DNA of 64,000 bases from Gemmatimonadota bacterium (GCA_028875345.1 JAPPEG010000101.1:1-64000); one strand, 5' to 3'. Numbered from the stretch's first letter, positions 31,556 through 54,675 are shown. Notes: generated by a model from the letters alone, not told the origin. Made by a program: numbers and translations.

Positions 31556-31563
31556 GTAGTCTC

Positions 31564-33459
31564 CTAACTCCACGGCAGGGCGTACGAGGGCTTATTGACG
31601 AAGCGCTCCATCCCCAAGTCGAGCCGAATCGCCGATCCAGGCTGAAGACAGACGGTGAAGTGTCGGTCCTGTACGGCGACCGTTTTGTCCTCCAGTTGCC
31701 CCTGAACGTTCTGCTGATATTGGGTGGCGTGTGAGTGTCCCGCACCGGCTTCCTCAGCCGAGAGGGGCCGTCGCTGCTGGTAGGCAACGCGAGTGAAGCT
31801 GTGCTCGCCAAAAGCGCCGGCCTGCACCAAGACCTCGCGCTCTTCCGTCGGGTGCAGGTTGACCAAGTGCAGAACGGCCCGCTCGTCTGCCAGCGATTCC
31901 ACCAAGGCGGCCACGTCTAGCGGCAAGCCCGGTCGGCGGCGTTGCGGGTCGAAGTAGCGCAGGCGGGCCATGAGCAGGCCGCCATTGTACATGAAGAGCG
32001 GGGCTCCCATCGTCAGTTGCACCAAGCCCTCGACAGTGATGGGATTGCGCACTTGCAGATACCAGTCGCCGTAGGTAGCAGGATCTTGCTGGTCGTCGCG
32101 CATGAAGGCCAAGCGCTGATATACTTGCGCGTGGTTGTGCCGCAGGATATCCACCGGGTACTCCAGGTATTCGCCTTCAAGATACGCGGTCCAAGCCGCT
32201 TCGTGGCCGCCGCCGTGCTTGGAAGAGTGCGAGCTTACCTGCCGCCAATTGTCGCTGTCGTGGTTGCGCTGCTGTTGGAGCCGCGCCATGTCCTCTTGCT
32301 GCATGCTCATGCACCAGAGGTGGGTCGTGGGATGGGCCTGCATGGGACTGTACCCGTCCCAGCCTTTGTCGTGGTAGAAGTGCGGCGCGTATAGCGTCTG
32401 TCCCCGCATTTCCCCCTGCTGCATCAGCACGTCGATTTGCGAGCGCGGAAAGTCCATGTAGCGCAAGTCGCCGGAGAGCAACGCCGCGTTTTCCGCGGCC
32501 GCAATGCAGGCGTCGCTCAGGTGGTGCCAGCCGTGCGGCCACGTCCAGCCGTAGTACCCGCCGTACCACTTGCCGTCGATGTATTCGCCGATCTGCCCCG
32601 ACAGGCCGACGTTGTCGGGTAGGATGCCGTTGTTTTGCCGGGTGCGCTCGATCCACGCGTTGGTGTATTCCTCGACCCAAGCTCGGTACTTGTCGTCGCC
32701 GCTGCACAGATAGGCGTTGGTCACCATGCTGGTAGCGGCGAGGTTGCAGGCCACATCGCCGCGGCTCATGCGCTCGACGAGGGTTTGGCCCATCTTCTCT
32801 TCCATGCCTGGCTTTTGCAAATCCTCGACTGTCTCAATGCCGGGAATGTCGTGAAAGGGCAAGGGCCAAGGTTTCCACTGGGCGTAGCGATAGACCGTGT
32901 AGTGCTTTTCGAAGTTGCGGTGTGCTGGTCCCATACTGCCGTTGTGGGCGCAGCGGATGAGCTTTTTCTCCGCGTCGTAATTGGGGGCCTCGGGGTCTTC
33001 GTTGAGATAAAAGCCCGCATAGCGCTTGGCGCGCTCGACGTTCTTTTTAGTTGGATCAGCGAGACATAGCAAATAGAAAAACAAGTATCCCTCGCCTTGG
33101 TGCATCCAGTCGTACCCTTGCTCGTATTCTTTGACGACCATGGGGTGGCCGTGGCCGGTGTCGTAGCGGGTGAACTGTCGGGTGATGCCCTCCCAAGTGC
33201 GGTGGGAATATTCGAGCACGTGCTCGCCGCCACCCATCAAGTAAAAAAGCGGCCAGTTGTGGAAGCTCTCGTACGCATCGTCGAGGCCGTCGATGCTGCT
33301 AAAGTCCTCTGTGGGCGGCCACAGCACCGAGCCGTCCGGGCGCACGTAGCGCTCCATGAGCGGATGGACGGACGCGTCCATCAGGTCGATTAGGCTGCGT
33401 TCGAGAACGGCCCATTGGGGCGGCTCGACAAACGGTATGTTCCCTTCAACTCTTACCAC
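31564..33459 (-). CDS. Large protein of unknown function, probable alpha/alpha-toroid (glycan-active?)
   Basis: GTG start VVRVEGNIPFVEPPQWAVLERSLIDLMDASV; Trp/His-rich (WYGGYYGWTWPHGWHHLSDACIAAAENAALLSGD). Start reassigned from 33684. Confidence 0.6.
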   Translation of the reverse strand: MVRVEGNIPFVEPPQWAVLERSLIDLMDASVHPLMERYVRPDGSVLWPPTEDFSSIDGLDDAYESFHNWPLFYLMGGGEHVLEYSHRTWEGITRQFTRYDTGHGHPMVVKEYEQGYDWMHQGEGYLFFYLLCLADPTKKNVERAKRYAGFYLNEDPEAPNYDAEKKLIRCAHNGSMGPAHRNFEKHYTVYRYAQWKPWPLPFHDIPGIETVEDLQKPGMEEKMGQTLVERMSRGDVACNLAATSMVTNAYLCSGDDKYRAWVEEYTNAWIERTRQNNGILPDNVGLSGQIGEYIDGKWYGGYYGWTWPHGWHHLSDACIAAAENAALLSGDLRYMDFPRSQIDVLMQQGEMRGQTLYAPHFYHDKGWDGYSPMQAHPTTHLWCMSMQQEDMARLQQQRNHDSDNWRQVSSHSSKHGGGHEAAWTAYLEGEYLEYPVDILRHNHAQVYQRLAFMRDDQQDPATYGDWYLQVRNPITVEGLVQLTMGAPLFMYNGGLLMARLRYFDPQRRRPGLPLDVAALVESLADERAVLHLVNLHPTEEREVLVQAGAFGEHSFTRVAYQQRRPLSAEEAGAGHSHATQYQQNVQGQLEDKTVAVQDRHFTVCLQPGSAIRLDLGMERFVNKPSYALPWS

Positions 33460-33469
33460 TTTAGTCTCC

Positions 33470-35173
33470 TCATGTGTTGCGGACGAGGGCCTCCACCTGC
33501 GCGCGGAAGACCTCGATTTGCGCCGCGTATTCGTGGCGCAATTGGATGATGAATTGCCCAAAGAGCCGCTCCTGCTTTTGGCGGCGCACCAATGCTCGAG
33601 CGCGGCGCTCGGCCTGTGCAAAAGGCCTCGGTGCGGCGTTGATCGTCGAATCGAGCAAGCGGAAAATGGCGTAGTACGGGCCACTGATCGGTTCGGAGCT
33701 TAGCACCTCAGCGGTCGCGACCTCCAAGGCAATCGGACCGATGAATGCGCCGATTTTTTGCCCTTGTGCCGCCTCAAAGAGCGGGACGAACTGTTGCTTC
33801 TCCCAAGGATGCAGGTGAAACTCGCCCTGATTGGCTTTGCCGCGCCGGCGCAGGGTGTGCTCGGCGGCCAGCGCGCCCAAGTCGCCGCCGCGTTCCACTT
33901 CCTCGCGCAGCGCCAGCGCCTCCTCCTCGGTGCGAACTAAAATTTCCTGCACGCCGATCGATTCGAGGGGACGGAAAAGGTTGGAGTGGCGGTCGTAGAA
34001 CTCACGGGCTTCTTCGCGGCTGGCAAAGACGCCATCGACCACGTCCCGGCGCATGGCCACCAGCAGGTTCGATAGCTGCCGCTCTTGGAACCAAGCGACC
34101 ACTGCTTCTTCGCGGTCAACGCCCGCCGTGTACGCGCCGGCCAACAGCAGCGCGCGCGGCTCGACGATGTCTCGGACGAACCAGTCGAACTGCTCGGGCG
34201 CGTCCTCTGGAAAGCCAACGCCTAGCTCGCGAGCAAAATCGAGCAGATCGCCAATGGTAAATGTGCCGCTCTCGTGTTCATAGATCGGCTGCTCGCGCTC
34301 CTCCGCAGAAAACGCCTTGGCACCCTGCCCGATGCGGCCGCGCACGCGCTCCAAGGCTTGGTCGTGAACCACAAAGTCGAGTTCCTGCCGCAAGCGGGCC
34401 GACAGCGCCTGTACGGCCGGCGGCAGCTTCTCCTTGAGCAGCTCGGCCTCGATGACCGACTGCACGACCGAGAGCTTGACCGGCACTTCGGCTGTCACCT
34501 CGTACACGCCGAACTGGTCGTTAAAGAGCACCGGCTCCGAGAACTGGCCCGGTGCCAGCGGAAAGACCTTCTCCTGCAAGATGCGTGGGTACAGCTCGTC
34601 CTTGATCAGGTAGCGGCCCCCCTCTAGCTGGGTCGCGTCGAGCAAGTTGTGGCTGGCCCATACGTCGAAATCGTCACCGCCCTCCAAGGCCGCCTTGATT
34701 GCTCGCGCCTCTCCTACTGTGGCAACTACGATGCGCCGCACCTGCACGGCGCGGTCGCGGCCCGTCTCTCGCTGATGGGCCAGCATCTCCTCTTGTGTGT
34801 GGACGATCTTGTCGTACACCTCCAACTGCAAAAAGCGCCGCAAGACGCGGTCGTTATGCAGCTTGTCCATCTTGCGGCGGAAGTCGGCGCGCTGGTCGAG
34901 GCCCCGCTTCTTGGCCTCCAGGACCATGAGCTCCTTGTCGATTATGGTCTGCAAGTAGTCGAAATAGGCGTCAGCACCCGTCTTTTTACTCCGCAGATCG
35001 GGGTGTAGCCTTTCTTCAAACTCCAGCAATTGAGGGGCGTCGATTTCCACCTCGCCGACTCGGGCCACCACCAAGTCCTCGGTGGGGGTGCCGCAGCTCC
35101 AGCAAACGAGGAGCCACAGCCAATATACCGCGTGCTTCGCTCTACTCACTAAGCCCTGCTTGTACTGTGACAA
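33470..35173 (-). CDS. Lipoprotein parvulin-type peptidyl-prolyl isomerase/chaperone (SurA/PpiC-like)
   Basis: Lipobox LLVCWSC; IGVQEILVRTEEEALALREEVERGGDLGALAAEHT...RRRGKANQGEF; overlaps the next gene by 32 bp. Confidence 0.75.
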   Translation of the reverse strand: MSQYKQGLVSRAKHAVYWLWLLVCWSCGTPTEDLVVARVGEVEIDAPQLLEFEERLHPDLRSKKTGADAYFDYLQTIIDKELMVLEAKKRGLDQRADFRRKMDKLHNDRVLRRFLQLEVYDKIVHTQEEMLAHQRETGRDRAVQVRRIVVATVGEARAIKAALEGGDDFDVWASHNLLDATQLEGGRYLIKDELYPRILQEKVFPLAPGQFSEPVLFNDQFGVYEVTAEVPVKLSVVQSVIEAELLKEKLPPAVQALSARLRQELDFVVHDQALERVRGRIGQGAKAFSAEEREQPIYEHESGTFTIGDLLDFARELGVGFPEDAPEQFDWFVRDIVEPRALLLAGAYTAGVDREEAVVAWFQERQLSNLLVAMRRDVVDGVFASREEAREFYDRHSNLFRPLESIGVQEILVRTEEEALALREEVERGGDLGALAAEHTLRRRGKANQGEFHLHPWEKQQFVPLFEAAQGQKIGAFIGPIALEVATAEVLSSEPISGPYYAIFRLLDSTINAAPRPFAQAERRARALVRRQKQERLFGQFIIQLRHEYAAQIEVFRAQVEALVRNT

Positions 35174-38000
35174 AGGTCAATCCACTGGTTTCGGTGCGGG
35201 CCTTCTCCTCCGCGAGCTCTATCCGCCGCTTGTCAATGCGCAGCCCCACTTGGGACATGAGCTTATAGCCCAAGTACGAGGTCGTATTGGATAATTGCAC
35301 GGCAAAGGACGTCTCGTTGTAATCCCCGGTGGTATCACCTGCATTGACGGTGGCCTCGTCCACGACCATGTCGCGGAAACGCAAGTACTCCGTGCCGAAC
35401 TGTACGACCGAGCGCTTCATAAAGGGCACCTTTACCAATACCGAGGCCAGCGCGCTCCAATCGCGCCGCTCGGCCGTGGGGGTGCCTAGCTGCCGCTCGA
35501 TATTGAACGGAGTGTCGTCCATGAACAACTCGTGCTTGAGGCGCGGCAGCGCGGTTATGCGGCCCAGATGCACCGGGTACTCGGCCTTGTTGATCAGCCC
35601 AAAGCGCCGCGCATTGCGCTGCAAGAGGCGGCCAGCGCGGTCAACGGCATCCTCACGCCGTTGCTGCATGAATTCATACAGCAGCTTGCTCTCGCTCTGG
35701 AGGCCATCGCGGCCGCGGCGCTCAGCGCCTATCCACAGCTTGTTGACCAAGGCGTCGCCCATGCCCAGCGGGTCGCGGATGGCGGTCATGCCGCCGGGGG
35801 AATTGCTCGGGCGGCCCAGTACGGGGCGCAGTTGGATCCACTGCACCAAGTCTTCGGCGATCTCATCGGCAGCCCACTTGAACGAATTATACGCCGTCAG
35901 CGTGCCCAACCCGGCAAAGCTCTGTTCGTACGCCAGCAGGGCATAGTACGTGCGGTTGCGCGCACCCGTCGTCGGCTTGTGCTCCCACACCTGCCCAGTC
36001 GTCAGCTTGAGTTCAGGTCGGAGTTCCGCACTTAAATAGGCGTTGTACCCGCGCCGGTCGCGCTTATAGGGGTAATCGGGCTCGTCGTCGTTTTCAAAGC
36101 GGTCGCCCCAGCCATTGTTGTTCAAATCGAGGGCAAAGAGATACTCGGGCCGATCGACATTGTAGCGGAGAAAAGGCTCTTCGTAGTCGGGCAAGAAATT
36201 GGGACGCTCGCGCAGATCGTTTTGATTGAAGTCGGAAATGAAGTCGTTGTTCTCGTCGAGGCCCGGGAAGACCGCGTCGTCGGCAAAACCCTCAAAGGTG
36301 CGCGCGCGGCCCTGGCGCTGCTCACCGATGCGGCCGTCGTCAAAGCGGCGCTTTTGGTCGTTGATGCGGTCGTTGTCGTCGTTGTCATCGACAAAGTCGT
36401 ACACGTGTCGCGACCGCGCTTCGTCGTCGTTGGACCAATCCACCCGACCGCCGCTATCGACAAAGCGCGGGCTCGTGTCGTACTCGGCGTCTAGGCCAAA
36501 TGCCTCGCCAAAAAAGTAAAACGGCGCAAAGCGGCGCGAGACATTGAACATCCAGCCGAGGGCCGCGCGATCTCCGCCAATGCCCGAGGACGCCTTGTGC
36601 GTATCCCGAGTCCGCGTCGGGTACTGGGTGAACTGGTGGTTGACGTTGAATTCGCCGTACACGCGGAAACCAGCCCAATCGTCGGCCTGGAGCGTCAGCC
36701 CAGCTACCTGCGTCGCCGTCGGCAGTCCGTAGTCAAAGACCACCGTCCGCTGGTTGGAGTTGTCCCAGACGTTGCCCTCGGCCCGGGCGACCGTGCGAAA
36801 CTGCGGCTGCTCGCCGCTGGGACTGTTGTCGGTCTGGCGGTTGGACGTAACCTCTACCTTGTAGTCGTTGCCCAACACCAAGCGGAAGCGCACCCGGCTG
36901 ATTTGGTTGACCAAGTCCGCGCTCGGCACTACGGATTCTAGGTCCATAACCGCCGGATCGTCGTCGGAAAACACGTATTCGAGCAAGATCTGGCTCGCCT
37001 CGCCCCGCCCTTCGGCCGTCAGAAAACCGCCCCGCTCGATTCCACCGACGATGCGCGGCGCAAAGCCAATCTCGCTGCCAATCAGCAGGGTGTCGCGGTC
37101 GCCGATCCGCGTCTCAATCTCAATATCGCTGCCAAAAAGCACGGCTCCACCGCCCTCGTCTTCGGGCGAATCGTCGGTCAGCCGCACCACGATGCGGTCG
37201 ATGCGACCGTCTAGCTGGCCACTCGTCAGCTTGCCCTTGAGCGGGTGGCCCTCAAAGCGGTCGGAGGCCGTCCGGCCGTTGTGCGCGTTGAGAAAAGTGC
37301 CGCCGATCCGCGTCGTAGCGCCCAAGTCCAAGACCACGCGCCCGCCGATGAGGTTGGTGAAATTGTCCTCTGTCACGGGAAAGGGATCCGTGCGGAACAG
37401 CGGCAGGTTGATCCGCGACATGAGCACGGTGGCCGTCAGGCGGTCGGCCGCGTAGTTGAACATAACTCCGTTGTACGCGGTCTTGCGAAAGGTCATGGGC
37501 GTCAGCATGGCGAAAATTTCGTCGCCGATGAGCACCGAGAAGTAGTGCTGGCCCTTGGTGTCGCCGGCAATGACCAAGTTGCGGAACCACGAGCCGTATT
37601 GGCCAGCCTGCAAAATGCCCGAACCACCCGATCCGGTCGGCTGGACCTGACGCCAGTCGTAGATCAACCAGCCCTTGTTCAAGAAGCGCCCGTAGAGGTC
37701 GTAGAAGTACCCGCCCTCCAATCCCGGGTCGAGATAGCGCCGGTATGGGTCCCGCGCGTAGTTGGTGTAGGCCCACTGTCGGCGGTACTCGCCGGCGATT
37801 TCCTGCGGCAGATACCACTTCTGCAACGAGGGATAGACAGCCTCCATGCGCAGTCCGGTGCCGGCCGAATAGTAGATCGGCTGGCCCGTTTCGATGCGGC
37901 CCAAACGGCTGCCGTAATCCTCGCGCTGGGCGTCGAGCGGCGCGGCCCCAAGCAGGGCGACCCAACAGAGAGCGCCGACGCGGCGCAAACTGGCGTTCAT
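35142..38000 (-). CDS. Giant outer-membrane/surface protein, paralogue 1
   Basis: Signal-peptide-like N-terminus; shared motifs DENNDFISDFNQND...PDYEEPFLRYNVDRPEYLFALDLNNNGWGDRFENDDEPDYPYKRDRRGYN; C-terminal barrel-like repeats ending FVTVQAGLSE. Confidence 0.6.
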   Translation of the reverse strand: MNASLRRVGALCWVALLGAAPLDAQREDYGSRLGRIETGQPIYYSAGTGLRMEAVYPSLQKWYLPQEIAGEYRRQWAYTNYARDPYRRYLDPGLEGGYFYDLYGRFLNKGWLIYDWRQVQPTGSGGSGILQAGQYGSWFRNLVIAGDTKGQHYFSVLIGDEIFAMLTPMTFRKTAYNGVMFNYAADRLTATVLMSRINLPLFRTDPFPVTEDNFTNLIGGRVVLDLGATTRIGGTFLNAHNGRTASDRFEGHPLKGKLTSGQLDGRIDRIVVRLTDDSPEDEGGGAVLFGSDIEIETRIGDRDTLLIGSEIGFAPRIVGGIERGGFLTAEGRGEASQILLEYVFSDDDPAVMDLESVVPSADLVNQISRVRFRLVLGNDYKVEVTSNRQTDNSPSGEQPQFRTVARAEGNVWDNSNQRTVVFDYGLPTATQVAGLTLQADDWAGFRVYGEFNVNHQFTQYPTRTRDTHKASSGIGGDRAALGWMFNVSRRFAPFYFFGEAFGLDAEYDTSPRFVDSGGRVDWSNDDEARSRHVYDFVDDNDDNDRINDQKRRFDDGRIGEQRQGRARTFEGFADDAVFPGLDENNDFISDFNQNDLRERPNFLPDYEEPFLRYNVDRPEYLFALDLNNNGWGDRFENDDEPDYPYKRDRRGYNAYLSAELRPELKLTTGQVWEHKPTTGARNRTYYALLAYEQSFAGLGTLTAYNSFKWAADEIAEDLVQWIQLRPVLGRPSNSPGGMTAIRDPLGMGDALVNKLWIGAERRGRDGLQSESKLLYEFMQQRREDAVDRAGRLLQRNARRFGLINKAEYPVHLGRITALPRLKHELFMDDTPFNIERQLGTPTAERRDWSALASVLVKVPFMKRSVVQFGTEYLRFRDMVVDEATVNAGDTTGDYNETSFAVQLSNTTSYLGYKLMSQVGLRIDKRRIELAEEKARTETSGLTFVTVQAGLSE

Positions 38001-38004
38001 GCCG

Positions 38005-40761
38005 CTACTCCAGCCCCGCGTACACGGTTATGAAGCTGGTGCTAAAGGCGCTGACTTCGTTGGTCCGCTCCAAGTCTTCGCTGCCAATAATTACCCGCTC
38101 CTCCCACAAGCGCGTATAACTAAAGCCAAACTGCGTTGTCAGCCGGTAGCCCAAGTAGGACCCGGCGCTGGACCATTGCAGGGCCAACACCAAGTTGCGG
38201 AAATCGCCCGTAGGCCCAGCCGGACCGTTGGCGAGTTGCTCATCCTCGTCGAGGACCAAGTCCCGGAACAGGGAAAACTCAACGCCCGTTTCTACCAGCG
38301 ACTGGCTCAATAGCGGATGGCTCAGCAGCACGATGCCCGTGCCGACCCACTCTTTGCGGTCCTCAGCGCGCGCTTCGAGCGCAGTTTGGTTTAGATACTC
38401 GCTCTTGACCTTGGGCTGCAACTTGAAGCCAGCCAAGCCGAAGGTGTAATCCGCTTTGTTGATCAACCCAACCAAGTGGCTGCCTTGGTTGAGCGCCGGG
38501 CCTTTGACGCGGCTTTTGAACGCGCTGCCTTGCTGCCAAAAGCGTTCGTACTTGAACTTGTTGATCGCATTTAGGTTGTCGAGTGGCTGGTAGTCGAGCT
38601 GTAAATAGGTCGTGTTGATCCACGTATCCCGCGCCGGCAGAATGTCGCGCACCAGCGCGAGCGAGTTGACTTCGAGGTGCGGCGTCATCTCGCGCCGGTC
38701 GTCGGCAATATCGTCTTCCACGCGCCGCAGCATCTCAAAGGCCCGCACCCGGCCCCAAGTGAAGTCGCGGTCGTAGGTCAGCAGGCCATACTCAGCGCGG
38801 TTGCGCCCGTCGGAGGCTAGGCTCTTTTCATTCAGCCTACCCAACGTCAGCCGCGTGTGCGGGTCGAGGAAAATGCCGGCGTACAGGTTGTAGCCCCGGC
38901 GATCGACCTTGTAGGGGTAGTCGGGCAAGTCGTCGTTTTCAAAGCGGTCGATCCAACCATTGTTGTTCAGGTCGATGCCGAACAAAAATTCCGGGCGATC
39001 GGCCGCATAGCGGAAGAAGGGTTCTTCGTAATCTGGGATGCGGTTGTTGAGGATGCGGTTGTCGTTTTGGTTGAAGTCGGAGACAAAGTCGTTGTTCTCG
39101 TCCCACCCCGGAAAGACGGCCACATCGCCGCCGCCCTGCGAGAAGCGGAACCAATCGGCCGAGCGGTCTTGGTCGTCGTTGTCGTCAACCAACTCGTACA
39201 GGGACGTGCGCGGATTGTCGTAGGTAATGTCCCCGCCGTCATCGACGATAAACGAGCTCGTCGAGTAATCCGGGTCCATGCTGTATGCCTCGCCGAAAAA
39301 GTAAAACGGCGCGGCCACCTTTGAGGCGTTGACCATCCAAGCCTCAGCGTCGCGGGCGTGCGTGGCCAGCGAGAGATCGGCTGCTTGGCGCGCCGGGTTG
39401 GGGTATTGACTGTACGCGCGGCTGACGTCGAATTCCGCGTATAGGTCCACGCCCTTGATATCCGTGGCTTCTACAGTGAAGCCGTAGATCAAGCGGGACG
39501 ACGGCAAGCCGTAGTCAAAGACGACCCGCTGCTGGTTGGAATTGTCCTGCACATTGCCCTCGGCGCTGAGGATGTCGAACAACGCCGGGGACTGATCTTC
39601 AATGTCTTGGCCCGTCAGCGGCAAGACCGGCAGCACACGGCTGCCCGTCTGCCGGTCGGACCAAACTTGCACCTTATAGTCATTGGCCAAGACTAAGTCG
39701 AATTGCACGGCGACGAGCTCCGAGGGACGCGGCCCGGTGTAGGCGATATCCGTGAAGTCGTAGTTGATGACGATCTTCTCGTCGCCGTCGGCCGCTAAGG
39801 CCCCTTCCTTGGGTGCCCCGCCCGAGACCACGGGCCACCGCGCCGGATCGGAGACCACGTCGCGGAGCCTAAACTGCTCGCGCTCCCCCGTCTCTGGATC
39901 CTCGCTCGTCAAGAGGATGTCGTGCGAAAACAAGGTCGCCCCGCCCCGACCGTCCTCGGGCGAGTCGTCGCTGAGGACTAGGGCAAGGCCCGAGACCGGC
40001 AGGCTGCCCTGATTGGCCGCGAGAGTGCCGACGAAGGGATTGCGCTCAAACGCGTCGGCCACTGTGGTGGAGTTGCGCGCATTGACTAAATTGGCCCCCA
40101 CGGCCACGAAATCGCCGATCTGCACCACGGCGCGGCCAGCCATCAGGTTGGTGGCATTGGTGATGCCAGTGGGGGCACTGGGCGTGCTGCCGATGACCGG
40201 GCGGCTCACCCGCGAAAAGAGCAGGGTGCCCTCGTATTTGTCCGCAGCAAAGTCCATCTGCACGCCGCTGAAGGCCGGCTTGGAGAAGGTGAGCGGGGTC
40301 AGGGTCGTGCGGATTCGATCGCCCACTGTGATTGCATAGTAGAACTGCCCCTGCGAGTCCGAGCTAATGGTGACCGCGTTGAACCAGTTGTTAAAGCGCG
40401 GATCCTTGAAGATGGACGAACCAAATTGCACGGGCTGGTTCTGGGTCCAGTCGTAGATGAGCCAGCCGCGCGTCAAGTAGTTGCCGTACAGGTCGTAAAA
40501 CGGAGAGCCTTCAATCGTGGTGCTGACGTAGCGCTCGTACGCGTCGCGCGCGTAGTTGGTGTACTGCCACTGCTGCCAACCGTAATCGGCAAACAACTCC
40601 TGCGGCACGTACCAGCGCTTGATCGTTGGATCCAAGGCGTCGAAGAGCACGCCCGGCCCCCGAGGCTCATAGGTGATGTCCGCACCCCAGCGCCGGCCTT
40701 GGGCGTGGGCACTTAGCGCCGCGACGAGCAAGGCGGCGAGTATCCACCGTAGGTCTCGCAT
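38005..40761 (-). CDS. Giant outer-membrane/surface protein, paralogue 2
   Basis: DENNDFVSDFNQNDNRILNNRIPDYEEPFFRYAADRPEFLFGIDLNNNGWIDRFENDDLPDYPYKVDRRGYN aligns with paralogue 1; ends FITVYAGLE. Confidence 0.6.
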   Translation of the reverse strand: MRDLRWILAALLVAALSAHAQGRRWGADITYEPRGPGVLFDALDPTIKRWYVPQELFADYGWQQWQYTNYARDAYERYVSTTIEGSPFYDLYGNYLTRGWLIYDWTQNQPVQFGSSIFKDPRFNNWFNAVTISSDSQGQFYYAITVGDRIRTTLTPLTFSKPAFSGVQMDFAADKYEGTLLFSRVSRPVIGSTPSAPTGITNATNLMAGRAVVQIGDFVAVGANLVNARNSTTVADAFERNPFVGTLAANQGSLPVSGLALVLSDDSPEDGRGGATLFSHDILLTSEDPETGEREQFRLRDVVSDPARWPVVSGGAPKEGALAADGDEKIVINYDFTDIAYTGPRPSELVAVQFDLVLANDYKVQVWSDRQTGSRVLPVLPLTGQDIEDQSPALFDILSAEGNVQDNSNQQRVVFDYGLPSSRLIYGFTVEATDIKGVDLYAEFDVSRAYSQYPNPARQAADLSLATHARDAEAWMVNASKVAAPFYFFGEAYSMDPDYSTSSFIVDDGGDITYDNPRTSLYELVDDNDDQDRSADWFRFSQGGGDVAVFPGWDENNDFVSDFNQNDNRILNNRIPDYEEPFFRYAADRPEFLFGIDLNNNGWIDRFENDDLPDYPYKVDRRGYNLYAGIFLDPHTRLTLGRLNEKSLASDGRNRAEYGLLTYDRDFTWGRVRAFEMLRRVEDDIADDRREMTPHLEVNSLALVRDILPARDTWINTTYLQLDYQPLDNLNAINKFKYERFWQQGSAFKSRVKGPALNQGSHLVGLINKADYTFGLAGFKLQPKVKSEYLNQTALEARAEDRKEWVGTGIVLLSHPLLSQSLVETGVEFSLFRDLVLDEDEQLANGPAGPTGDFRNLVLALQWSSAGSYLGYRLTTQFGFSYTRLWEERVIIGSEDLERTNEVSAFSTSFITVYAGLE

Positions 40762-40775
40762 TAGACCCTCCCTAA

Positions 40776-42941
40776 TTAGTACGCTAATTCGATAGCTCTA
40801 ACCGCGCTTTCGCCGCCTGTATCGCTGGCTAGCGTTACGCGCACTAAGTAAATGCCCGGCGGCAGCGCGGCCCCGTTCGCATCCGCGCCGTCCCAAGGCA
40901 TGGCGTACGAGCCGCCGCCCTGGAGGCCGGAAAATAGTTGGCGCACCCGGCGTCCGGCCAAATCGACGATGTCCACATCAACCGGGGACGGGCTGACCAA
41001 ACGGCTCAGATCGTAGTACACCTGCGTCGCGTCGTTGACTCCATCGCCATTGGGGCTGAAGGGCCGGGGGTCGGCGCGCACGTTGATCAGCAGGGCGCTG
41101 CCGCCGGCTAGCGGCACATCCACCGAAAGGCCCCGGTTCGTCTCTGTGCCAACCGCCACAATATCGTCGTCGCCGGGAGCCAGCGCGGCCACGTTGCCAG
41201 CGACGACCTCCTGCCCCACATCCCCCTCGGCGCTGTTGAAGGCAAAACCGGCAAACTTGGTACCGTAGCGCAACACGCGGCTGCGAAAGCGAATTTTTAG
41301 CTGGGCCGTCCGTCCGGTCGCCAGCTCGCTTTCGGCAATGAGGGGGAAGCGCACGCGAAAGCGGCGCGCATCGACTGACTCAATGGCAAAGCGTCCGGTC
41401 TCGTCAGTAGCTGGCAGCGCGGCAAGATCGGCCATTGAAAAGTCCGCGGTCTCGACCTGCCCATCGGCATCGACGACTTCAATGGACTCAATAACCTCTA
41501 CTCGCACCGGCGTAGCGATCTCAAAACCATCAAAGCCCGTATCTACGCCTGGCCGAATGGAAGTCGGCATCACCGCATAGACGAAATCCACCGGCTTACC
41601 CAAATCGACTTGACGCGGAAAGATCTCGCCGAGAATCTGCGCAGCCGGCGGCGGCGAGGCCACGGTAAAGGCCAGCGGGCCGATGCCTGTGGCCGCCTCC
41701 AAATCCTCGCTGAGAAAGTCGATGCGAAACTGGATGTATCGCCTCGGCCCAGGCGATACAATCGGCACGCCCAATTGGCTATCCTCGATCTCTGCCTCGG
41801 TCAACTGGGTCCCCAATTCGTAGGGCGAGGACCACGGGCTCCAAGCGTCTAGGTCGGCGACCACATTGCCCCGCTCGGCACCCAAGCCCTTGTAGTCGTC
41901 CGACGACAGCGAGATGGCGTTGCGCTCCTCCAGCGGCAGCGCGCCAAAGAGCACACGCGCACGCGCTAAGTCGGCTTGGTCGAGATTGACCTCGCCGTCC
42001 TCAGTCGCAACCGTGGCGTTCTTTTGCCACGGCACCTCGACTTGGACCCCCTCGAAGAAGAAGCGCCGGGTATAGACCAAGGGAGTGTCGTCCAAGCCGG
42101 TGCGGGTGCGCACGCGTGCGTTGGCGAAACCAGCCGGGCCGACGCTTTCTTCCACCCAGCGAATGGTCCCCCACAAGCCCAAATCTGGGCCGAGGTCGAA
42201 TATGTTGGATATGTATTCGGCCGTGGGCACGAAGCCCGTGCCAAAGACGCGGAACTCGGCAATCTCAAAACCGTTGCTGGTGCGCGACTGCAAGCGGATG
42301 AAGCGCACAAATTGCGGGGGAATGCTCAGATCGACTAGCGCGTCTTGGTTGGCAGCATTCAACCGAAACGAGCGCCATTCCGGGCCGCCCGCGCCTTGCG
42401 TCTCCTCGCTGCCGTCGTTGAAAAACAGCTCGTAGCCGCGGATGAAGTCCTCTTGGAACGGGTCTGCGGGAAAATCCGGGTGGCCATTGCGCGGGAAGAA
42501 CTGGACGCGATTGACCCCAAAGCGCGCGCCTAGGTCGAAGTCCATGGCCATGCCGCGGATGACGGCCACGTTCTTGCGCTCCAAGGCCGTTGCGCCGTCG
42601 CCGTCGATCATCGTCTCTAGCTGCGACTCAATGCCTGCTTCGAGGACCGTCGGCGAGGTGACCGAACCGCCGCGCCCGAGTATGCCGAGCGCTAGATTGG
42701 TTCCCTCGACGACGTTCTGCGGAAAAATCCAACCCTCCCGACCCTCGGGATCGAAATCGATCACGCCACCCGGGGTGTTCCCGCTCTCGACCGCTCTGGC
42801 CCCGGTCGGGAAAATCGCCTGTATCTGGCCGCCGCCGTCTTGCCACGACGATCCGCTCGCGCCGCCGATGGCAATGCTCCGCGTCTCGGCCGTGCCTTGC
42901 AGTGCCGCTAACAACAGCAGCGCGGTCGGCAACCAGTACAT
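40776..42941 (-). CDS. Secreted discoidin-like protein with C-terminal FlgD-Ig domain, paralogue 1
   Basis: RPFSPNGDGVNDATQVYYDLSRL...VDIVDLAGRRVRQLF...PWDGADANGAALPPGIYLVRV; start reassigned to ATG 42941. Confidence 0.7.
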   Translation of the reverse strand: MYWLPTALLLLAALQGTAETRSIAIGGASGSSWQDGGGQIQAIFPTGARAVESGNTPGGVIDFDPEGREGWIFPQNVVEGTNLALGILGRGGSVTSPTVLEAGIESQLETMIDGDGATALERKNVAVIRGMAMDFDLGARFGVNRVQFFPRNGHPDFPADPFQEDFIRGYELFFNDGSEETQGAGGPEWRSFRLNAANQDALVDLSIPPQFVRFIRLQSRTSNGFEIAEFRVFGTGFVPTAEYISNIFDLGPDLGLWGTIRWVEESVGPAGFANARVRTRTGLDDTPLVYTRRFFFEGVQVEVPWQKNATVATEDGEVNLDQADLARARVLFGALPLEERNAISLSSDDYKGLGAERGNVVADLDAWSPWSSPYELGTQLTEAEIEDSQLGVPIVSPGPRRYIQFRIDFLSEDLEAATGIGPLAFTVASPPPAAQILGEIFPRQVDLGKPVDFVYAVMPTSIRPGVDTGFDGFEIATPVRVEVIESIEVVDADGQVETADFSMADLAALPATDETGRFAIESVDARRFRVRFPLIAESELATGRTAQLKIRFRSRVLRYGTKFAGFAFNSAEGDVGQEVVAGNVAALAPGDDDIVAVGTETNRGLSVDVPLAGGSALLINVRADPRPFSPNGDGVNDATQVYYDLSRLVSPSPVDVDIVDLAGRRVRQLFSGLQGGGSYAMPWDGADANGAALPPGIYLVRVTLASDTGGESAVRAIELAY

Positions 42942-42952
42942 TGCAACCTCCC

Positions 42953-45445
42953 TCAATACACCACGTGAACGAGGCGGTGCCGCGCGGTGCGCTCCACGCG
43001 CGAGTCGTCGTTGGGCACCACTTCTACCTCTAGCAGATACAGTCCGGGGGCGACCAACGCGCCGGATTGATCCTCGCACGACCAGCGCAGGGCGTACTCA
43101 CCGCTGATCAAGGGCCGCGTCTCCTGCCAGTGCCGCACCATCCGGCCGGCTAGGTCGTAAATCCGCACGTGGAGCGGCTGGGTGCCAGTCAGCTTAGTGA
43201 CCGCGAATGAGAACGCCAACTCGTCGTTGATCCCGTCCCCATTCGGCGTCGCAACCCCACTGCCAATGCTCAAGTCGCCCAGCACGTGGCGGCCGCCTTC
43301 TGGGCCTACCAACAGCATCCCCTGCCCGGTCGCCAACTCCGTTGCATCCGCTGGATCAACCCGCTGCCAAGAGTCCTCAAGGGCCGAATGCCCCAACGAC
43401 GCCTTGAACACGGCACCGGGCAAGTAGAGGGCGGTGGCGAATTGAACCTCAATCAGATCGGCTGCCGACGGGGCGACGACCTCGCTCAACCGCACCCACA
43501 AAGAGTCTGGGGCAGTCGCCACTACTTCTGCTGAGGCCACCAGTTCCGCACTGTCCCATTGGGCCTCGCGCCCCAGCCGCAGGCCCCGGAACTCCAGTAC
43601 CATGTTATCCGGTGCCCTTATCTGCACCTCGTCAAACCCCGCGCTTTGAGCAGCAAACCTTGGTTTGATGAAAAGCGAAAGCTCCTGCTCCTTGCCCAAT
43701 GCGCCCACCACACCGGGTTCGATCTCGCCTAAAAGCTGGTTGGCCAGCGGCTCGACGAAGTTGAGCCGAATGGAGCGCAGCTCGGCCGCGCGCTGCGGGT
43801 CGTCCGAGACCAAGCGGGCCTTGAGTTCCAGAAATTGGCGCGGGCTCGGAGAAGTAATCGCCGCGCCCGACGCCTCGTAGGGCAAGCTCCACGCGCTCCA
43901 GTCGCCTCCAGGGACTTCCGTCGTGTCGACCGGCCCCTTGCTGAAAAAGCCCAAGCCTGCGTATGCCTCGGCCGACACTTCGGCACCGCCGCTGTTGAAA
44001 TAGCGATACTCTTCGACCAGCTCGCTGCCCGTGCGCGTCTGAATTTCGATAAAGGTTCCCAAGTCGGTGTCGCCATCCCACTCAACCGAGACCAAGTTTT
44101 TCGAGCCGCCCAAGCGGATGAGCGGCGAAACCAACTCGACTTCCGGCTGGAATCCCTCGCCGTAGAACTGCACCTCGCGCGGCTTGAACTGACCGCCTCC
44201 CCAGAACAAAATTCGCGCATAGCGCGTCCGCGTCGGCGCGAACGTATCCACGTCGTACACGTCTCCGGTATAGTGGCCAGACGTGGCGCGATTGCGATGC
44301 GAGGCCTGCGTCGTCCACACCAGCGAGCCGTCCGCAGCCAGCGAGCCGTCCGAAGTCTGCAAGTCGTAATTGGGGAAGCGGCTGCGCTGGCGGTCGTAGT
44401 AAATCTGGTGTCGGTCGATCCAGAAGGAAGAGCCTAAGTCGAAGAATAATTCCCGTATCTCGTCGGTGCTGGTAAAGGCCAAGGATGTCTCAAAGATGCC
44501 GTCGAAGAAGGCGGTCGCGGGCGCGTTGTCCAAGAAGGTGAGCAGTGCGACGCCTCTGCGCTCCACCAAGCCCAGCGAGATGTTTTCCCCGAGCGTCTGG
44601 ACCTCCAGCTCGGCCAACCGCGGCCGCTCGCGGCGGTAGCGGCGGATCTCACCGCGCAACGCAGAGTCAACCACCTCGTACGTAGCCTCACTCACCTGCA
44701 CTTGGCCCGCGCCGGCCTTTTTGTAAAAATCCACTGCGCCTTGATCCGCAGCCGCTAGCTGGTCGTATTGTTCAGCCGATACCTCGGCGGCTCGCGTGCT
44801 ATCCGTGTCGGTGATCGTCATGCGCACGAAGCGGATGTAGTCGCTCACCATGCGCCCTTCTCTGTCAAGGCGCGAGGGGCTCAGCTCGATTTCAAATTCT
44901 CGCTGGTCCTTGTTCGACTTCAAGGTGCGAAATACTTGGTTGAATCTGCGCTGACCTTTTGTGACCTCGGCTCCGTCCGAGGTCAAAACCACGAATTGCA
45001 GGAAAGGGTCGCCTAGCTCCTCGCCGACGAATGTGAGCCGGATATGGGTGGCTGCTACCAGCCGCCCCAAATCGACCTCAAACCACCATTGGCGCACTGG
45101 GCTCGCCGGATCGGGTTCCCAATAGGTGCTCAAGTCCCCGTCGAGAAGGTGGGCCAAATCCGCGGCCCGAGTGCCCGCAGTGAGGGCGTCGCGCAGGGTC
45201 GCGTCCTCCGAACCCTTGCCGCGCTTGATAAACGCCCCGATGTCTGACGTTGCCAGTATGTTCTTGGGCACGAAGTGAGGACGCACGGCCCCGGTCTCGT
45301 CGATGTCGAGCGTACCGCCGGGAAAAGTCCACTGCTGCCAGTGCGCCTGCCGCTCGACGACGACCCTGTTCCCGGCGATGGTATGGCCCTGTCCCCAGGC
45401 GGCGACAACGCCCAACACACTCAGTAACAACGCAGCATTCAACAT
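42953..45445 (-). CDS. Secreted discoidin-like protein with C-terminal FlgD-Ig domain, paralogue 2
   Basis: LLDGDLSTYWEPDPASPVRQWWFEVDLGRLVAATHIRLTFVG (F5/8 type C-like); GVATPNGDGINDELAFSFAVTKL...RIYDLAGRMVRHW. Confidence 0.72.
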   Translation of the reverse strand: MLNAALLLSVLGVVAAWGQGHTIAGNRVVVERQAHWQQWTFPGGTLDIDETGAVRPHFVPKNILATSDIGAFIKRGKGSEDATLRDALTAGTRAADLAHLLDGDLSTYWEPDPASPVRQWWFEVDLGRLVAATHIRLTFVGEELGDPFLQFVVLTSDGAEVTKGQRRFNQVFRTLKSNKDQREFEIELSPSRLDREGRMVSDYIRFVRMTITDTDSTRAAEVSAEQYDQLAAADQGAVDFYKKAGAGQVQVSEATYEVVDSALRGEIRRYRRERPRLAELEVQTLGENISLGLVERRGVALLTFLDNAPATAFFDGIFETSLAFTSTDEIRELFFDLGSSFWIDRHQIYYDRQRSRFPNYDLQTSDGSLAADGSLVWTTQASHRNRATSGHYTGDVYDVDTFAPTRTRYARILFWGGGQFKPREVQFYGEGFQPEVELVSPLIRLGGSKNLVSVEWDGDTDLGTFIEIQTRTGSELVEEYRYFNSGGAEVSAEAYAGLGFFSKGPVDTTEVPGGDWSAWSLPYEASGAAITSPSPRQFLELKARLVSDDPQRAAELRSIRLNFVEPLANQLLGEIEPGVVGALGKEQELSLFIKPRFAAQSAGFDEVQIRAPDNMVLEFRGLRLGREAQWDSAELVASAEVVATAPDSLWVRLSEVVAPSAADLIEVQFATALYLPGAVFKASLGHSALEDSWQRVDPADATELATGQGMLLVGPEGGRHVLGDLSIGSGVATPNGDGINDELAFSFAVTKLTGTQPLHVRIYDLAGRMVRHWQETRPLISGEYALRWSCEDQSGALVAPGLYLLEVEVVPNDDSRVERTARHRLVHVVY

Positions 45446-45457
45446 GGCCCCTGCTCC

Positions 45458-47407
45458 TCAATAGGCGACGGCAATGGGCCGCATTTGCACTTGGCGCTGT
45501 CCGCCGCTCTCGACCTCGACTTGGCAGATGTACAGACCGGGGGCCACCTGCTGGCCGGCCTCGTCTCGCCCGTCCCACTGATGCGGATGTCGGCCCGCGC
45601 CATCGACGTCTGCGTACACGCGCCGCACCAAGCGGCCGCTCAAATCCCGCACCAGCACCTCCACCGGCACCGGCTCGGTCACCTTGAGCAGTTCGTAGGC
45701 AATCTCCACTTGGTCGTTGATCTGGTCGCCGTTGGGCGTAAACGCCTCGGTGCTCAGCGACACAGCGCCTAAGACCTTATCGTCTAGGGTCATCGCCTGC
45801 ACCAAAAGTTGGTTGCCATCTACCAATTCGTTGGCCTCGCCAGCAGCCACGATCTGCCCGATCTCCCCCGGCGCGGTGCTGTCGATCACCCGGCCTTCAA
45901 AAATTGCGCCAAAGCGGAAAATTTCCGCGCGCACATCCACTTCGAGCAATTCGCCGCTGCGCTCGACATCCAGCCGTGGGAAACCCAAAACTACGCCCGC
46001 ATCCTCGGCCACGGCGCTGAAATCCGCCACGGGTTCACCACTGAGGCGCACGGCCTCCACGCCGACGATCCGGCCGCCGACCAAGCGCAGGTCCAAACCG
46101 TCAAACCCTTGGTCGGCGGGTTCAATCGTCGGGCGCACTGCATAGGTGAACGTGCGTTCCTCAGCCACAGCCGCTTGCCAAGGATCGATCTCGCCGACTA
46201 AGCCGGTCACCAAGCGCGGGGAAGCGGCGAATTCGAGATAGCCGAGCTGGCCGCCGGCTTGGCCGAAGGAACTAAATGCTATCCTGAACTGCACATAGCG
46301 GTGAGAGCGCGTCGCCCGCAGCGCCACGCCCGCGCTGTCGGCGAATTCGTACGGCGACGACCACAACTCCCATTGGGCGGTGTCGTCGGTGATGGCTCCG
46401 CGCATGATCGGCCCCAAGCGGCCATAGGTTTTGCGGGTCAGCAGCTTGCCGTCCTCGCCGAAGGGCACCTGCTCGTCGCCGCGGAAGGTATTGCGCCAGT
46501 ACACCAGCGGCGTCTCGTCGCCGCCGGCGCGGGAGCGAATCTCCACTTGCGCCCCTTCGTCCTGCCGCCCTCCCCAGCGCACCCAGCCCAAATTGGCGAA
46601 TTCGCCTATATCGAGAACATTGGACTGGTACGAGGCCGAGCCTTGGAAACCGCCGCCGTACACCTCCAACTCAGCCAGGTCCCATATCTTATCTTGGGGC
46701 ATTACGTGAATCATCAAATAGCGGATCGGCGTTCCGTCTAGCTCGATGTCGAGTTGCGGATTTTTGTTTTCCAAAATTTCCGCGACCACCTTTAGCTCAA
46801 TGCCCTTCTTGCTGTCGGCCTCTCTCAACGACCGATTGAGCGCACTCGCTCCAACGAATTCAATCTGATCAACGCCGCCCCCGGCATCGGTCTGCGCGGC
46901 GACGATGACGTGGGCGACAGAGCGTTCGCTGCCCACCTTTGGGACGAAGCGGACCAACCGCGTCGCAAAGTCGCCGCCGAGATCAAAGAAAAGAGCCGTG
47001 CCGCGGAAGGTATGGGCGTGTTCCCTCGGACGGGTCTCCAAGAAAAACGTCGTCGGGTCCCCGTCGATCACCAAGCTCAACTCGTCGCCGACATCTTCAA
47101 AACCATTGTACGCGCCGTGCTGAAAATTGCCGCTGACCCCGCTCAAGGTCGTCGCCATATTATCGCCCTCGTTGTAGAAGAACGGCGTGATCTGCTCGGT
47201 GAGCGCGAGCCCAAAGCTCTCGCCGCCGAGATCTTTATCTAAGTCGGCCCAGCTCAACTGGCGAAATTCAGCACCGGCGTCCACCTCGGCCGGAGGCGGC
47301 AAGCTCTCGCCGCCGATGCGATAGATGACCAAGGCCGAGCTTGGCTGGACGCCGAGCAAAGCCAACAAGGCCGCGATGAGCCACGTCGTGCGCTGCAATT
47401 TTTTCAT
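45458..47407 (-). CDS. Secreted discoidin-like protein with C-terminal FlgD-Ig domain, paralogue 3
   Basis: VIDGDPTTFFLETRPREH...FFDLGGDFATRLVRFVP; AFTPNGDQINDQVEIAYELLKV...VLVRDLSGRLVRRVY. Confidence 0.72.
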   Translation of the reverse strand: MKKLQRTTWLIAALLALLGVQPSSALVIYRIGGESLPPPAEVDAGAEFRQLSWADLDKDLGGESFGLALTEQITPFFYNEGDNMATTLSGVSGNFQHGAYNGFEDVGDELSLVIDGDPTTFFLETRPREHAHTFRGTALFFDLGGDFATRLVRFVPKVGSERSVAHVIVAAQTDAGGGVDQIEFVGASALNRSLREADSKKGIELKVVAEILENKNPQLDIELDGTPIRYLMIHVMPQDKIWDLAELEVYGGGFQGSASYQSNVLDIGEFANLGWVRWGGRQDEGAQVEIRSRAGGDETPLVYWRNTFRGDEQVPFGEDGKLLTRKTYGRLGPIMRGAITDDTAQWELWSSPYEFADSAGVALRATRSHRYVQFRIAFSSFGQAGGQLGYLEFAASPRLVTGLVGEIDPWQAAVAEERTFTYAVRPTIEPADQGFDGLDLRLVGGRIVGVEAVRLSGEPVADFSAVAEDAGVVLGFPRLDVERSGELLEVDVRAEIFRFGAIFEGRVIDSTAPGEIGQIVAAGEANELVDGNQLLVQAMTLDDKVLGAVSLSTEAFTPNGDQINDQVEIAYELLKVTEPVPVEVLVRDLSGRLVRRVYADVDGAGRHPHQWDGRDEAGQQVAPGLYICQVEVESGGQRQVQMRPIAVAY

Positions 47408-47482
47408 AACGGCACCTCCAAGAAGAAGAGGGGATGGGACTAGCCCATCCCCCCTCGTTCTTGCATCCTAAATACTGCCTGC

Positions 47483-48433
47483 TTACTGGACGTAGGCAGA
47501 CTTGATGCGACCCCAGCTATTCTCCTCGACCGCGCTCTCGATCGCACTGAAATCGACGCGCGGATCAAGGGGTGCCAGCAGGAAATCCGTGGCCGAAGCC
47601 GTGGTTTTCCACACGTCGGTGGCACCCGAAAGAGACCACTGGCCGGAGTGCTCGGCATCCTGACCAACGCCGCCGTCGGCACCGGCTACATCGCTGTCGA
47701 AGACCGCCCAGCCCAAGCCGGTGATATCGCCCTCGTTGTAGTCGTGGATGACGCTGCCTTCCGGGTCGTTGAAGAGAAAGTCGTCCCAAGCTTGGCGCCG
47801 CACCTCGATAAAGGCCGTGGCCTCGCCGCCACCGATTTCGCCGTCCAAGCGGAAGCCGTGGTCGGCGTAGGGCAGCTCGTCGTGCCACTGCGCTTGGGTC
47901 ATCCAAAACCACGACCAACTCTCCTGGCCGTCGGGACCGAGATTCGGGAAGCGGGTGTGGTAGGACTGCGACCAGCGGCCTTGGGCCAAGGCGCGCTCTT
48001 CCTCGTTCTCTATGTCGGCGGTCCCGAAGCGCATCTGATCGCCGCTGTGGTCTCCATCGACGTGCATTTCCCAGCTATCGTCGCCGCCGGCCACGCCGCC
48101 TTGGGCGTCGCGGTCGTAGAAGTCGTCAAAGCGCTCCATCATGAAATAGAGACTGTTGGTCGATTCGCTCCAGCCGACGATAGAGCGGAAGTTCAAGTCG
48201 CCGAAATCGGCCGGCTTTTCGCCGTTGAACTCGGTGTGCTCGGCAAAGGAAATCAAGTAGTCCTCGGGCACGATCGACCATTCGGACAGATCGCCGTCCA
48301 GCGTTGGCTCAAGGCCCGCCGGCCACTGGAAAGCCGTGCGCACAGCGCCCTCGGGCACGTGCGCCGTAGCCGGAGCGACGACGGCCACGCACAGGGCCAG
48401 TGCGAGCAAAACAGTGATTTTTTTCAAAACCAT
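47483..48433 (-). CDS. Secreted CBM9-like carbohydrate-binding protein
   Basis: Signal peptide; PTLDGDLSEWS and DDSWEMHVDGDHSGD motifs. Confidence 0.65.
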   Translation of the reverse strand: MVLKKITVLLALALCVAVVAPATAHVPEGAVRTAFQWPAGLEPTLDGDLSEWSIVPEDYLISFAEHTEFNGEKPADFGDLNFRSIVGWSESTNSLYFMMERFDDFYDRDAQGGVAGGDDSWEMHVDGDHSGDQMRFGTADIENEEERALAQGRWSQSYHTRFPNLGPDGQESWSWFWMTQAQWHDELPYADHGFRLDGEIGGGEATAFIEVRRQAWDDFLFNDPEGSVIHDYNEGDITGLGWAVFDSDVAGADGGVGQDAEHSGQWSLSGATDVWKTTASATDFLLAPLDPRVDFSAIESAVEENSWGRIKSAYVQ

Positions 48434-48552
48434 CCTCCTTGGTTTTAGTTAAAACGCCCGCTACAGTGGGGCATATTAGGAGCTTATTATAAAACAAACG
48501 CTTCCGTTTTACTACTCTTACTTCGGCAATACCCTCCTTTCTCGGTTGTAAC

Positions 48553-50076
48553 CTATTGCGGTGTTTGCAAATGCTCAATGCGGCTCTGAGCCGCCGCTAG
48601 CACCTTCTCGTCGCCGCGCCAGTGCCGGACGAAGGCCCCGTACGCGAGGCGCGCTGCCGCGGCCTCGCCCTGTTTTTCGTAGGCTTGGCCCAGCGCGTAG
48701 TGGGAGCGCGCATGAGTGGAATCGCGCCGCACGACCTCCTCGAACTGGGCGATGGCCTCCGCCAAGGACTCGCGCCGGGCCAAAGCCATGCCCAATCCGT
48801 AGTACGCATCGCTCAGCTCAGCGTCGCAGGCGAGGGCGGCCCGATAGGCGCTGATGGCTTTTTCCAAGTCGCCCTGCAGGGCATGCACATTGCCCAAGGC
48901 ATTGTGTGCCTTGGCGTAGCAGGCGTCGATGTCCAAGGCGCGGGCAAACGCGGCCTCGGCCTCGGCCCACCGCTGCTTTTGCGCGTGGGCAAAGCCCATG
49001 GTAAAGTGCGCTTCGGGCGCGCGCCGGCCACGCGGCTCGTGTGCAGCAATTTTGCCAGCCAAGTGCGCGGCGCGCTCGACATCGCCCTGCCGCAGGTGGA
49101 TTTGCACCACTGCGGCCAGCGCGTCAACGTGCTCGGGCTCGCGGCTGAGCACTTCCTTGTACGTGCTCAGCGCATCTGCGTATTGCCCTAGGCGCATCTG
49201 CGCTCGGCCCAGCGCCAACCGCGCCTCCACATCGCCGGGCTCCCTCTCCAGCACCTTTTCCAAGGTCTCTTCCCGCTCTGACAAGTCGAGCAGGCCCTCT
49301 AGGCGCGCGAGCATGGCTTCGGCTTCGTCGTAGCGGCCTTGGGCCGAGTACAAATTCGCCAAGTCGTGGTACGCCTCGCCGTAGTTGGCGTCGAGCGCCA
49401 CGGCCCGGTTGAGCGCCTGCGCGGCCTCATCGTACCGCTTCTCGTTCAGGTAGAGCCGTCCCATGTCCCGCCATATCTCTTTGCGCTTTGGTGCCAACTC
49501 GGCCGCTTCCACCAAAACCTCTTCCGCGCGCGCATTGCGGCCCTGCCGGCTATAGAGCAAGGCTAGGGCTTGCCGCGCTTCCACGTCTTTTGGCGCGATG
49601 TAAAGCGCCCTCAGCAGGGCTTCTTCGGCGCGCTCGTATTGCCCCTGCTCCTTGTGCAAAAAGGCCAACAAGCGATACGAGCTAGGCGATTGAGGGTCAA
49701 AGCGCAGCGCGGTTTCCGCCGCCTTTACGGCCTGCGGGTAGCGGCCTGCTTCGAGGTGGGCGATGGCCAAGTTGTGATAGGAGGGAATGTACGTCGAATC
49801 CAGCGCAATGGCCCGCGCAAAGTGCTCGGCCGCCGCCGTGCTCTTGCGCTGCAAATGCGCCAAGCCTAAGTAGAAGTGCGCGTCGCGGGACAGCGAATCG
49901 CGGCTCACAGCCTCTTGGTACACGTCCACTGCTTGGTCATACTGCCCCTGATCCAAATAAGCCCTTCCCACTGCGAGCAGTGAATTGTCCGCTGGCGGCT
50001 CCTGCCGCACTTCGCCGCATCCTCCGATTGAGAGGAGGGCGAGTACGGCAATGCAATCCACGGGCGAGCGAGGCAT
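48553..50076 (-). CDS. TPR-repeat lipoprotein
   Basis: Lipobox ALLSIGGC; many TPR units (YDQAVDVYQEAVSRDSLSRDAHFYLGLAHLQ, YDEAAQALNRAVALDANYGEAYHDLANLYSAQGRYDEAEAML). Confidence 0.93.
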   Translation of the reverse strand: MPRSPVDCIAVLALLSIGGCGEVRQEPPADNSLLAVGRAYLDQGQYDQAVDVYQEAVSRDSLSRDAHFYLGLAHLQRKSTAAAEHFARAIALDSTYIPSYHNLAIAHLEAGRYPQAVKAAETALRFDPQSPSSYRLLAFLHKEQGQYERAEEALLRALYIAPKDVEARQALALLYSRQGRNARAEEVLVEAAELAPKRKEIWRDMGRLYLNEKRYDEAAQALNRAVALDANYGEAYHDLANLYSAQGRYDEAEAMLARLEGLLDLSEREETLEKVLEREPGDVEARLALGRAQMRLGQYADALSTYKEVLSREPEHVDALAAVVQIHLRQGDVERAAHLAGKIAAHEPRGRRAPEAHFTMGFAHAQKQRWAEAEAAFARALDIDACYAKAHNALGNVHALQGDLEKAISAYRAALACDAELSDAYYGLGMALARRESLAEAIAQFEEVVRRDSTHARSHYALGQAYEKQGEAAAARLAYGAFVRHWRGDEKVLAAAQSRIEHLQTPQ

Positions 50077-54663: not shown

Positions 54664-54675
54664 AGTCTACTCTAA

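Follow-up and report, generated by a model that had tools for sequence, protein, structure and literature searches.

Two described systems of Bacteroidota come closest to the locus analysed here. SusCD polysaccharide-utilisation loci (PULs) and outer-membrane utilisomes are found as many dispersed loci per genome, in which a large barrel is combined with surface binding proteins and with locus-specific transporters and enzymes (PMC7618045). In type IX secretion, type B cargo with Ig-like C-terminal tails is held by a co-encoded, cognate PorP-like barrel, and the translocon is likewise associated with a peptidyl-prolyl isomerase (PMC9143113). For Latescibacteria, a paper on their metabolism holds non-specific porins responsible for uptake, and searching its text for relevant terms gave no mention of a cassette like the one presented below (PMC4454575); no published description of this cassette was found in the library searched.

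The window (the whole stretch of DNA that was analysed, 64,000 nucleotides) carries on its minus strand the eight genes that a sequence-only reading had proposed as an envelope or secretion cluster, and all eight open reading frames were recovered at or close to the proposed boundaries. In the order of transcription, they encode a TPR-repeat lipoprotein of 507 aa (48553..50076), a CBM9-like secreted protein of 316 aa (C9, 47483..48433), three surface proteins with FlgD-Ig tails, namely D1 (649 aa, 45458..47407, with discoidin and Ig-like domains), D2 (830 aa, 42953..45445, with two discoidin domains and an Ig-like domain) and D3 (721 aa, 40776..42941, discoidin-like, the start being most likely at 42941 rather than at 43079), a tandem pair of predicted outer-membrane barrels, Ga (918 aa, 38005..40761) and Gb (952 aa, 35142..38000), and a parvulin-type peptidyl-prolyl isomerase (PPI, 33470..35173, start codon uncertain). 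From 33470 to 47407 the genes are separated by −32, 4, 14, 11 and 12 bp, followed by 75 bp before the C9 gene and 119 bp before the TPR gene. The tight spacing proposed for this run is thus real (−32 to 14 bp), whereas its proposed end at 33470 is wrong: three further minus-strand genes, spaced 10, −10 and 3 bp, continue the operon down to 29786. These encode an enzyme-like protein of 631 aa (31564..33459), assigned to the operon by its position 10 bp after PPI and without a match in Pfam, NCBIfam or, by sequence, the PDB, an HpcH/HpaI-type aldolase (30779..31573; PF03328, E 1.9e-34) and a D-2-hydroxyacid dehydrogenase (29786..30775; PF02826, E 4.1e-49). The order of these three genes is kept in four related genomes (G001, G006, G007 and G010), in which the window's locus is found with 91-98% identity in Gb. 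G003, a single-contig genome of the same genus, has no copy of the window's locus (best match 59%) and carries other barrel loci, which indicates that the locus is accessory and the system is not.

Ga and Gb are 39% identical and form one family by alignment (G hereafter); they are paralogues, as had been proposed, although 'giant' was too strong a word for proteins of 918 and 952 aa. Neither was matched by sequence in Pfam, NCBIfam or the PDB, and a PDB search with a profile of 70 G sequences retrieved no relatives. Structure prediction, suggested earlier as a check for a beta-barrel, did return one: the AlphaFold model of Gb, built on the 70-sequence alignment, is an outer-membrane barrel of about 24-26 long strands (pLDDT 76.4, pTM 0.76), with an inserted domain at about residues 250-410 and an acidic insertion at about 505-648 (27% D+E vs. 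12% elsewhere). The acidic region is well conserved by alignment, and a strict regular expression for it matched 11 of the 70 sequences, for which reason calcium binding by this insertion is a guess. Foldseek with the Gb model found solely large outer-membrane barrels (MtrB, LptD, SlpA, TonB receptors, an usher and SprA), at low TM-scores (query TM at most about 0.24). The best of these matches, MtrB, LptD and SlpA, have TM-scores of 0.15-0.33 and identities under 10%, a likeness of broad fold only, and neither multihaem cytochromes nor an LptE-like partner were seen. Three assignments to named families were considered and rejected: a TonB receptor or SusC, as there is no plug and no Pfam match in Ga or Gb; a paralogue of SprA, the SprA model matching just the SprA genes and two sub-threshold fragments; and a member of PorP/SprF, given that no TIGR03519 match over the cut-off and no NCBIfam match was obtained. 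A predicted barrel fold combined with the lack of a sequence-family match suggests that G is an outer-membrane barrel of a family that appears undescribed as far as the tools used show. Within the family, the first-position copies, including Ga, form a clade of their own, so that the tandem barrels fall into two parallel clades, which makes a single origin of the pair, with joint retention ever since, probable. Three divergent clusters of 2-3 barrels in G003 (L111, L118 and L127, at about 392-400 kb, 1236-1246 kb and 3447-3456 kb) mostly lack the typical PPI and C9 partners and possibly represent an older or differently used branch.

The three D proteins are full-length paralogues in profile comparison, in agreement with the sequence-only reading: the homology of D2 with D1 and with D3 spans about 525 columns, and hhalign of D3 against D1 gives E 1e-128. 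Pfam assigns FlgD_ig above the cut-off to two of the three (D1 and D3) and F5/8-type C (F5_F8_type_C) to D2, in which profile search detected a second discoidin-like region; CHU_C stays below the Pfam cut-off in D1, D2 and D3, and TIGR04131 and TIGR04183 are likewise below theirs. With the AlphaFold model of D1 (pLDDT 87.5), Foldseek matched galactose oxidase, C5a peptidase and PorU, and also S-layer, pilin and biofilm proteins. By both sequence and fold, the front of D1 corresponds to a discoidin domain of the galactose oxidase/CBM32 type and the back to FlgD, the Fn/Ig part of C5a peptidase and PorU, and the D tail matches the end of PorU. The discoidin-plus-Ig arrangement is common to the D proteins and galactose oxidase/CBM32-type proteins, but no oxidase domain was seen in the D proteins and a FlgD-Ig tail is added. 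The last residue of the D alignments is a Tyr that varies hardly or not at all, in most cases within VAY or VVY, and most D proteins bear a TPNGDGxND-type motif like that of CHU_C/type B tails. For C9, no Pfam match was found, and the CBM9-like label given to it earlier is backed by a weak profile match to the CBM9 of xylanase A (1i82, E 0.026). The PPI matches PF13145 in two stretches (E 8.3e-14) and so classifies as a PPIC-type rotamase; of the earlier term 'parvulin lipoprotein', the first word holds, and for the second no clear lipobox was seen in the window's PPI. The TPR protein, in turn, has both Pfam TPR families and a clear lipobox (IGGC), as expected of the lipoprotein it had been called.

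With the G profile, the genome from which the window comes yielded 48 matches; the 56 obtained in G003 merge into about 47 genes in 30 loci. Across the phylum Latescibacterota, G is present in 39 of 64 genomes, all of them metagenome-assembled (MAGs) with an estimated contamination of up to 10%: in 25/25 genomes of the window's family, in 0/22 genomes representing another three families of the class, and in most genomes from further families. Conservation beyond the source genome, on which the sequence-only reading had made its proposal depend, thus extends across the phylum. Scanning about 85,000 species genomes revealed at least 147 G relatives, of which the best, among the matches listed, carry the names Latescibacterota, Handelsmanbacteria, Gemmatimonadetes and a few others. 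Several MAGs labelled Gemmatimonadetes, Bryobacterales, Gemmatimonas phototrophica or Woeseia (e.g., L031, L048, L092) bear G and are probably misnamed or contaminated by Latescibacterota.

The other parts accompany the barrel. Using a home-made gene caller on 31 stretches of 20 kb from G003, a cut that undercounts parts, we identified D1 in 28, D2 in 25, D3 in 28, PPI in 25 and C9 in 16; the same caller, applied to 41 long loci of Latescibacterota records other than G003, gave counts of 35, 38, 41, 34 and 30, respectively. The D proteins fall into three separate tree groups, usually represented by one member each per locus, and most loci share the parts list, with a single parvulin and as a rule a single C9, despite shuffled gene order and strand. 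In G003, 27 of the 30 strong PPI genes lie no more than 12 kb from a barrel (chance mean 3.9), as do 27 of the 34 C9 genes (chance mean 4.45), the rare high values of the null stemming from near-zero shifts; for TonB plug domains, 0/28 are located within 12 kb of G. In the barrel-free genome G026, the PPI family and D1 gave weak matches and C9 none. Mirror-tree correlations for all 15 pairs of parts range from 0.60 to 0.94, each above all 500 shuffles, and denote co-inheritance, not contact. By both the proximity and the mirror-tree shuffles, the parts co-occur far beyond chance, and the existence of a repeated surface cassette is near certain. At least 150 D matches were counted in G003 overall, and D1/D2 pairs also occur away from barrels, next to MFS transporter, sulfatase, lactonase, MR_MLE and PhyH genes, so that D1 and D2 do not strictly need G; examples of this barrel-free expansion are L175, L180, L182, L183, L187 and L188. 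Strong D3 matches stayed with barrels in the regions sampled, with none in the non-barrel regions sampled.

We further tested for enrichment by a Pfam tally of the flanks of barrel loci in G003 against 20 control regions, with catabolic and transport genes additionally named locus by locus. Three families stand out in the tally: TPR families were found in 16/104 flank proteins vs. 2/106 in controls, DUF6785 in 10/104 vs. 2/106, and UnbV_ASPIC in 11/104, the latter being outside the controls' 25 commonest families (lowest count 2); glycoside hydrolases do not stand out in this tally. The window contains both recurrent neighbours, a DUF6785/DUF6784 membrane protein that is a putative inner-membrane transporter (13683..15602, minus strand) and an FG-GAP/ASPIC-UnbV protein (51372..53579, plus strand); on DUF6785, no paper was found in the library searched. 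The gene after PPI varies even within the tandem-pair subclass: in the window it is the 631-aa protein, followed by the aldolase and the dehydrogenase, and in relatives it is an MR_MLE enolase (L029, L119) or DUF6785 (L035, L146). At four loci (L048, L051, L052 and L109), PPI shares 4 bp with a permease-type gene (ABC sugar permease), after which L109 continues with another permease gene and the gene of a binding protein. Barrel loci other than the window's carry MR_MLE, ABC sugar permease, binding protein, sulfatase and DUF6785 genes, and the window additionally bears a GH32 gene, a melibiase-like gene and an amidohydrolase gene. Locus-specific catabolic enzymes together with inner-membrane transporters, by which PULs are recognised, were accordingly present at the window and at other loci.

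Further features of the window lie outside the operon. The gene at 8907-11936 joins, in an unusual pairing, a sensor of Reg_prop and Y_Y_Y domains to a sigma-54 activator domain and a Fis-type HTH; the sensor resembles the sensor half of the hybrid PUL regulators of Bacteroidota. Between the ASPIC and melibiase-like genes lies a 2.7-kb insert of low GC (46%; 53580-56276) with a 310-aa gene (53731-54663) and a DNA methylase gene (54676-55971); its flanks are joined directly in G007 and G010, and the insert has the look of a small, restriction-modification-like island acquired not long ago. A second low-GC stretch (49%; 18796-22874) contains ORFs of 960 and 407 aa, and at the window's edge (3-5072) a protein of 1690 aa with several fibronectin type III domains is encoded.

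The sequence-only reading had recommended a search for type IX components elsewhere in the genome, and this search was productive. SprA (TIGR04189) reached summed scores above 600 bits in G000, G003, G006, G023 and G026 and 581 bits in G044, and the PorV family (NF033709) was over the cut-off in four genomes of four; in the same number of genomes, no PorP/SprF (TIGR03519) exceeded its cut-off. The GldM model gave no match in either the test or the control genomes, so that this search is uninformative. SprA has been reported to be restricted to the FCB superphylum (PMC12611786), within which the NCBI taxonomy places Latescibacterota, and its presence is therefore not in itself new. The SprA and PorV-family genes are single or few and are encoded away from the cassette, which is itself repeated about 30 times per genome; by copy number and the location of SprA, we reject the cluster as the type IX machine, and the proposal that it constitutes the secretion apparatus itself is not supported. 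The separate location of SprA and PorV leaves the D proteins as possible cargo of that system, which they may be. By analogy, the pairing of G and D looks like the arrangement of type B cargo and PorP-like barrel, with a different barrel: at about 950 aa, G is far larger than the 14-stranded PorP/SprF proteins, there are three cargo paralogues per barrel locus, and the D tail is nearer to FlgD_ig than to CHU_C.

Comparison with the SusCD systems likewise shows differences. The cassette is without a TonB plug and without SusD, of which no match was found in the cluster proteins in Pfam or NCBIfam, and its barrel is unrelated by sequence; three discoidin/FlgD-Ig paralogues and a dedicated parvulin stand in place of SusD-type lipoproteins, and glycoside hydrolases do not stand out among its neighbours. 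With a barrel lacking the plug and with SusD absent, the cassette is not a Sus system. The earlier statements that the cluster is a dedicated surface apparatus, and one without a match to a known named system, are both borne out, the former by a multi-protein set with a co-encoded folding factor that is conserved across the phylum.

Our preferred reading, to which we assign a probability of about 0.58, is that the Latescibacterota cassette functions like a PUL built from different proteins. The D1-D3 proteins, with discoidin/CBM32-type domains at the N-terminus and FlgD-Ig/CHU_C-like tails, would be secreted, probably via the type IX translocon encoded elsewhere (SprA, PorV), and their cognate barrel, here the Ga/Gb pair, would both anchor them on the cell and form the large outer-membrane component of a complex. 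The parvulin, and probably also the TPR lipoprotein, would help these large clients to fold or assemble in the periplasm. A ligand of glycan type would be captured by C9 and the D proteins; the barrel, we propose, passes it inward either as such or as products, and locus-specific transporters and enzymes, in the window the aldolase and 2-hydroxyacid dehydrogenase of the same operon, would complete the work. Substrate-specific capture or uptake agrees better than a secretion apparatus with how often the cassette is repeated, with its domains of sugar-binding type, and with the transporters and sugar-acid enzymes at many loci, and a constant core for capture joined to catabolic genes that differ between loci follows the logic of PULs. 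Conversely, the lack of a TonB plug in G and of SusD means that uptake would have no known energy source, which counts against this reading, as do the sub-threshold CHU_C scores of the D proteins, the occurrence of D1 and D2 without G, and a Pfam tally in which glycoside hydrolases are inconspicuous. A more specific version, a new class of outer-membrane machine in which Ga and Gb form a TonB-independent, heteromeric pair for the import of large substrates, these being captured by three paralogous binding proteins on type IX display, with about 30 substrate-specific cassettes per genome making up the main foraging apparatus of the phylum, we regard as doubtful.

The presence of SprA and the PorV family without PorP/SprF over the cut-off, together with the type B-like tails of the D proteins, could also mean that G plays the part of PorP/SprF, taking over D proteins from SprA and retaining them at the surface, as co-encoded PorP-like barrels bind type B cargo in Bacteroidota (PMC9143113), to serve in adhesion, gliding or matrix formation; uptake would then not be the job of G, and the neighbouring enzymes would be incidental. 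G is, however, nearly three times the size of PorP/SprF and has no sequence relation to it, D1 and D2 also occur without G, and about 30 cassettes, several with ABC permeases or sugar-acid enzymes, suggest substrate specificity, so that we consider such a pure anchoring role unlikely. Dispersed loci with their own PPI and often their own transporter or enzyme genes count against a structural, S-layer-like layer of G, D and C9, the repeats of which would provide antigenic or phage-evading variety. This is an idea to which the Foldseek matches of G to the trimeric SlpA/SDBC barrel of the Deinococcus S-layer and of D1 to S-layer, pilin and biofilm proteins give some substance, as does a copy number high enough to serve variation; yet barrel positions are well conserved (mean column identity 46%), unlike those of hypervariable coats, and we judge it improbable.

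Finally, there may be no complex at all, and large porins and secreted adhesins may have been duplicated in blocks by chance. The orphan D1/D2 pairs show that parts can live apart; duplication in blocks alone, however, would keep the gene order, whereas the parts list outlasts extensive reordering and strand changes between loci, and the strong PPI genes stay beside G in 27 of 30 cases. We therefore hold coincidence to be very improbable.

These results bear on the passage of large nutrients through the outer membrane outside Bacteroidota: most genomes of this candidate phylum carry a co-evolving surface kit, with dozens of copies in the window's family. Even if G were an anchor only, the cassette would represent an undescribed pairing of cargo and barrel on a large scale. 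If the PUL-like reading of capture and uptake is true, the cassette would constitute a second, independent PUL-like paradigm, it would suggest that type IX export and the capture of nutrients are linked in bacteria other than Bacteroidota, and the genes beside each copy would predict the diet of uncultured Latescibacterota.
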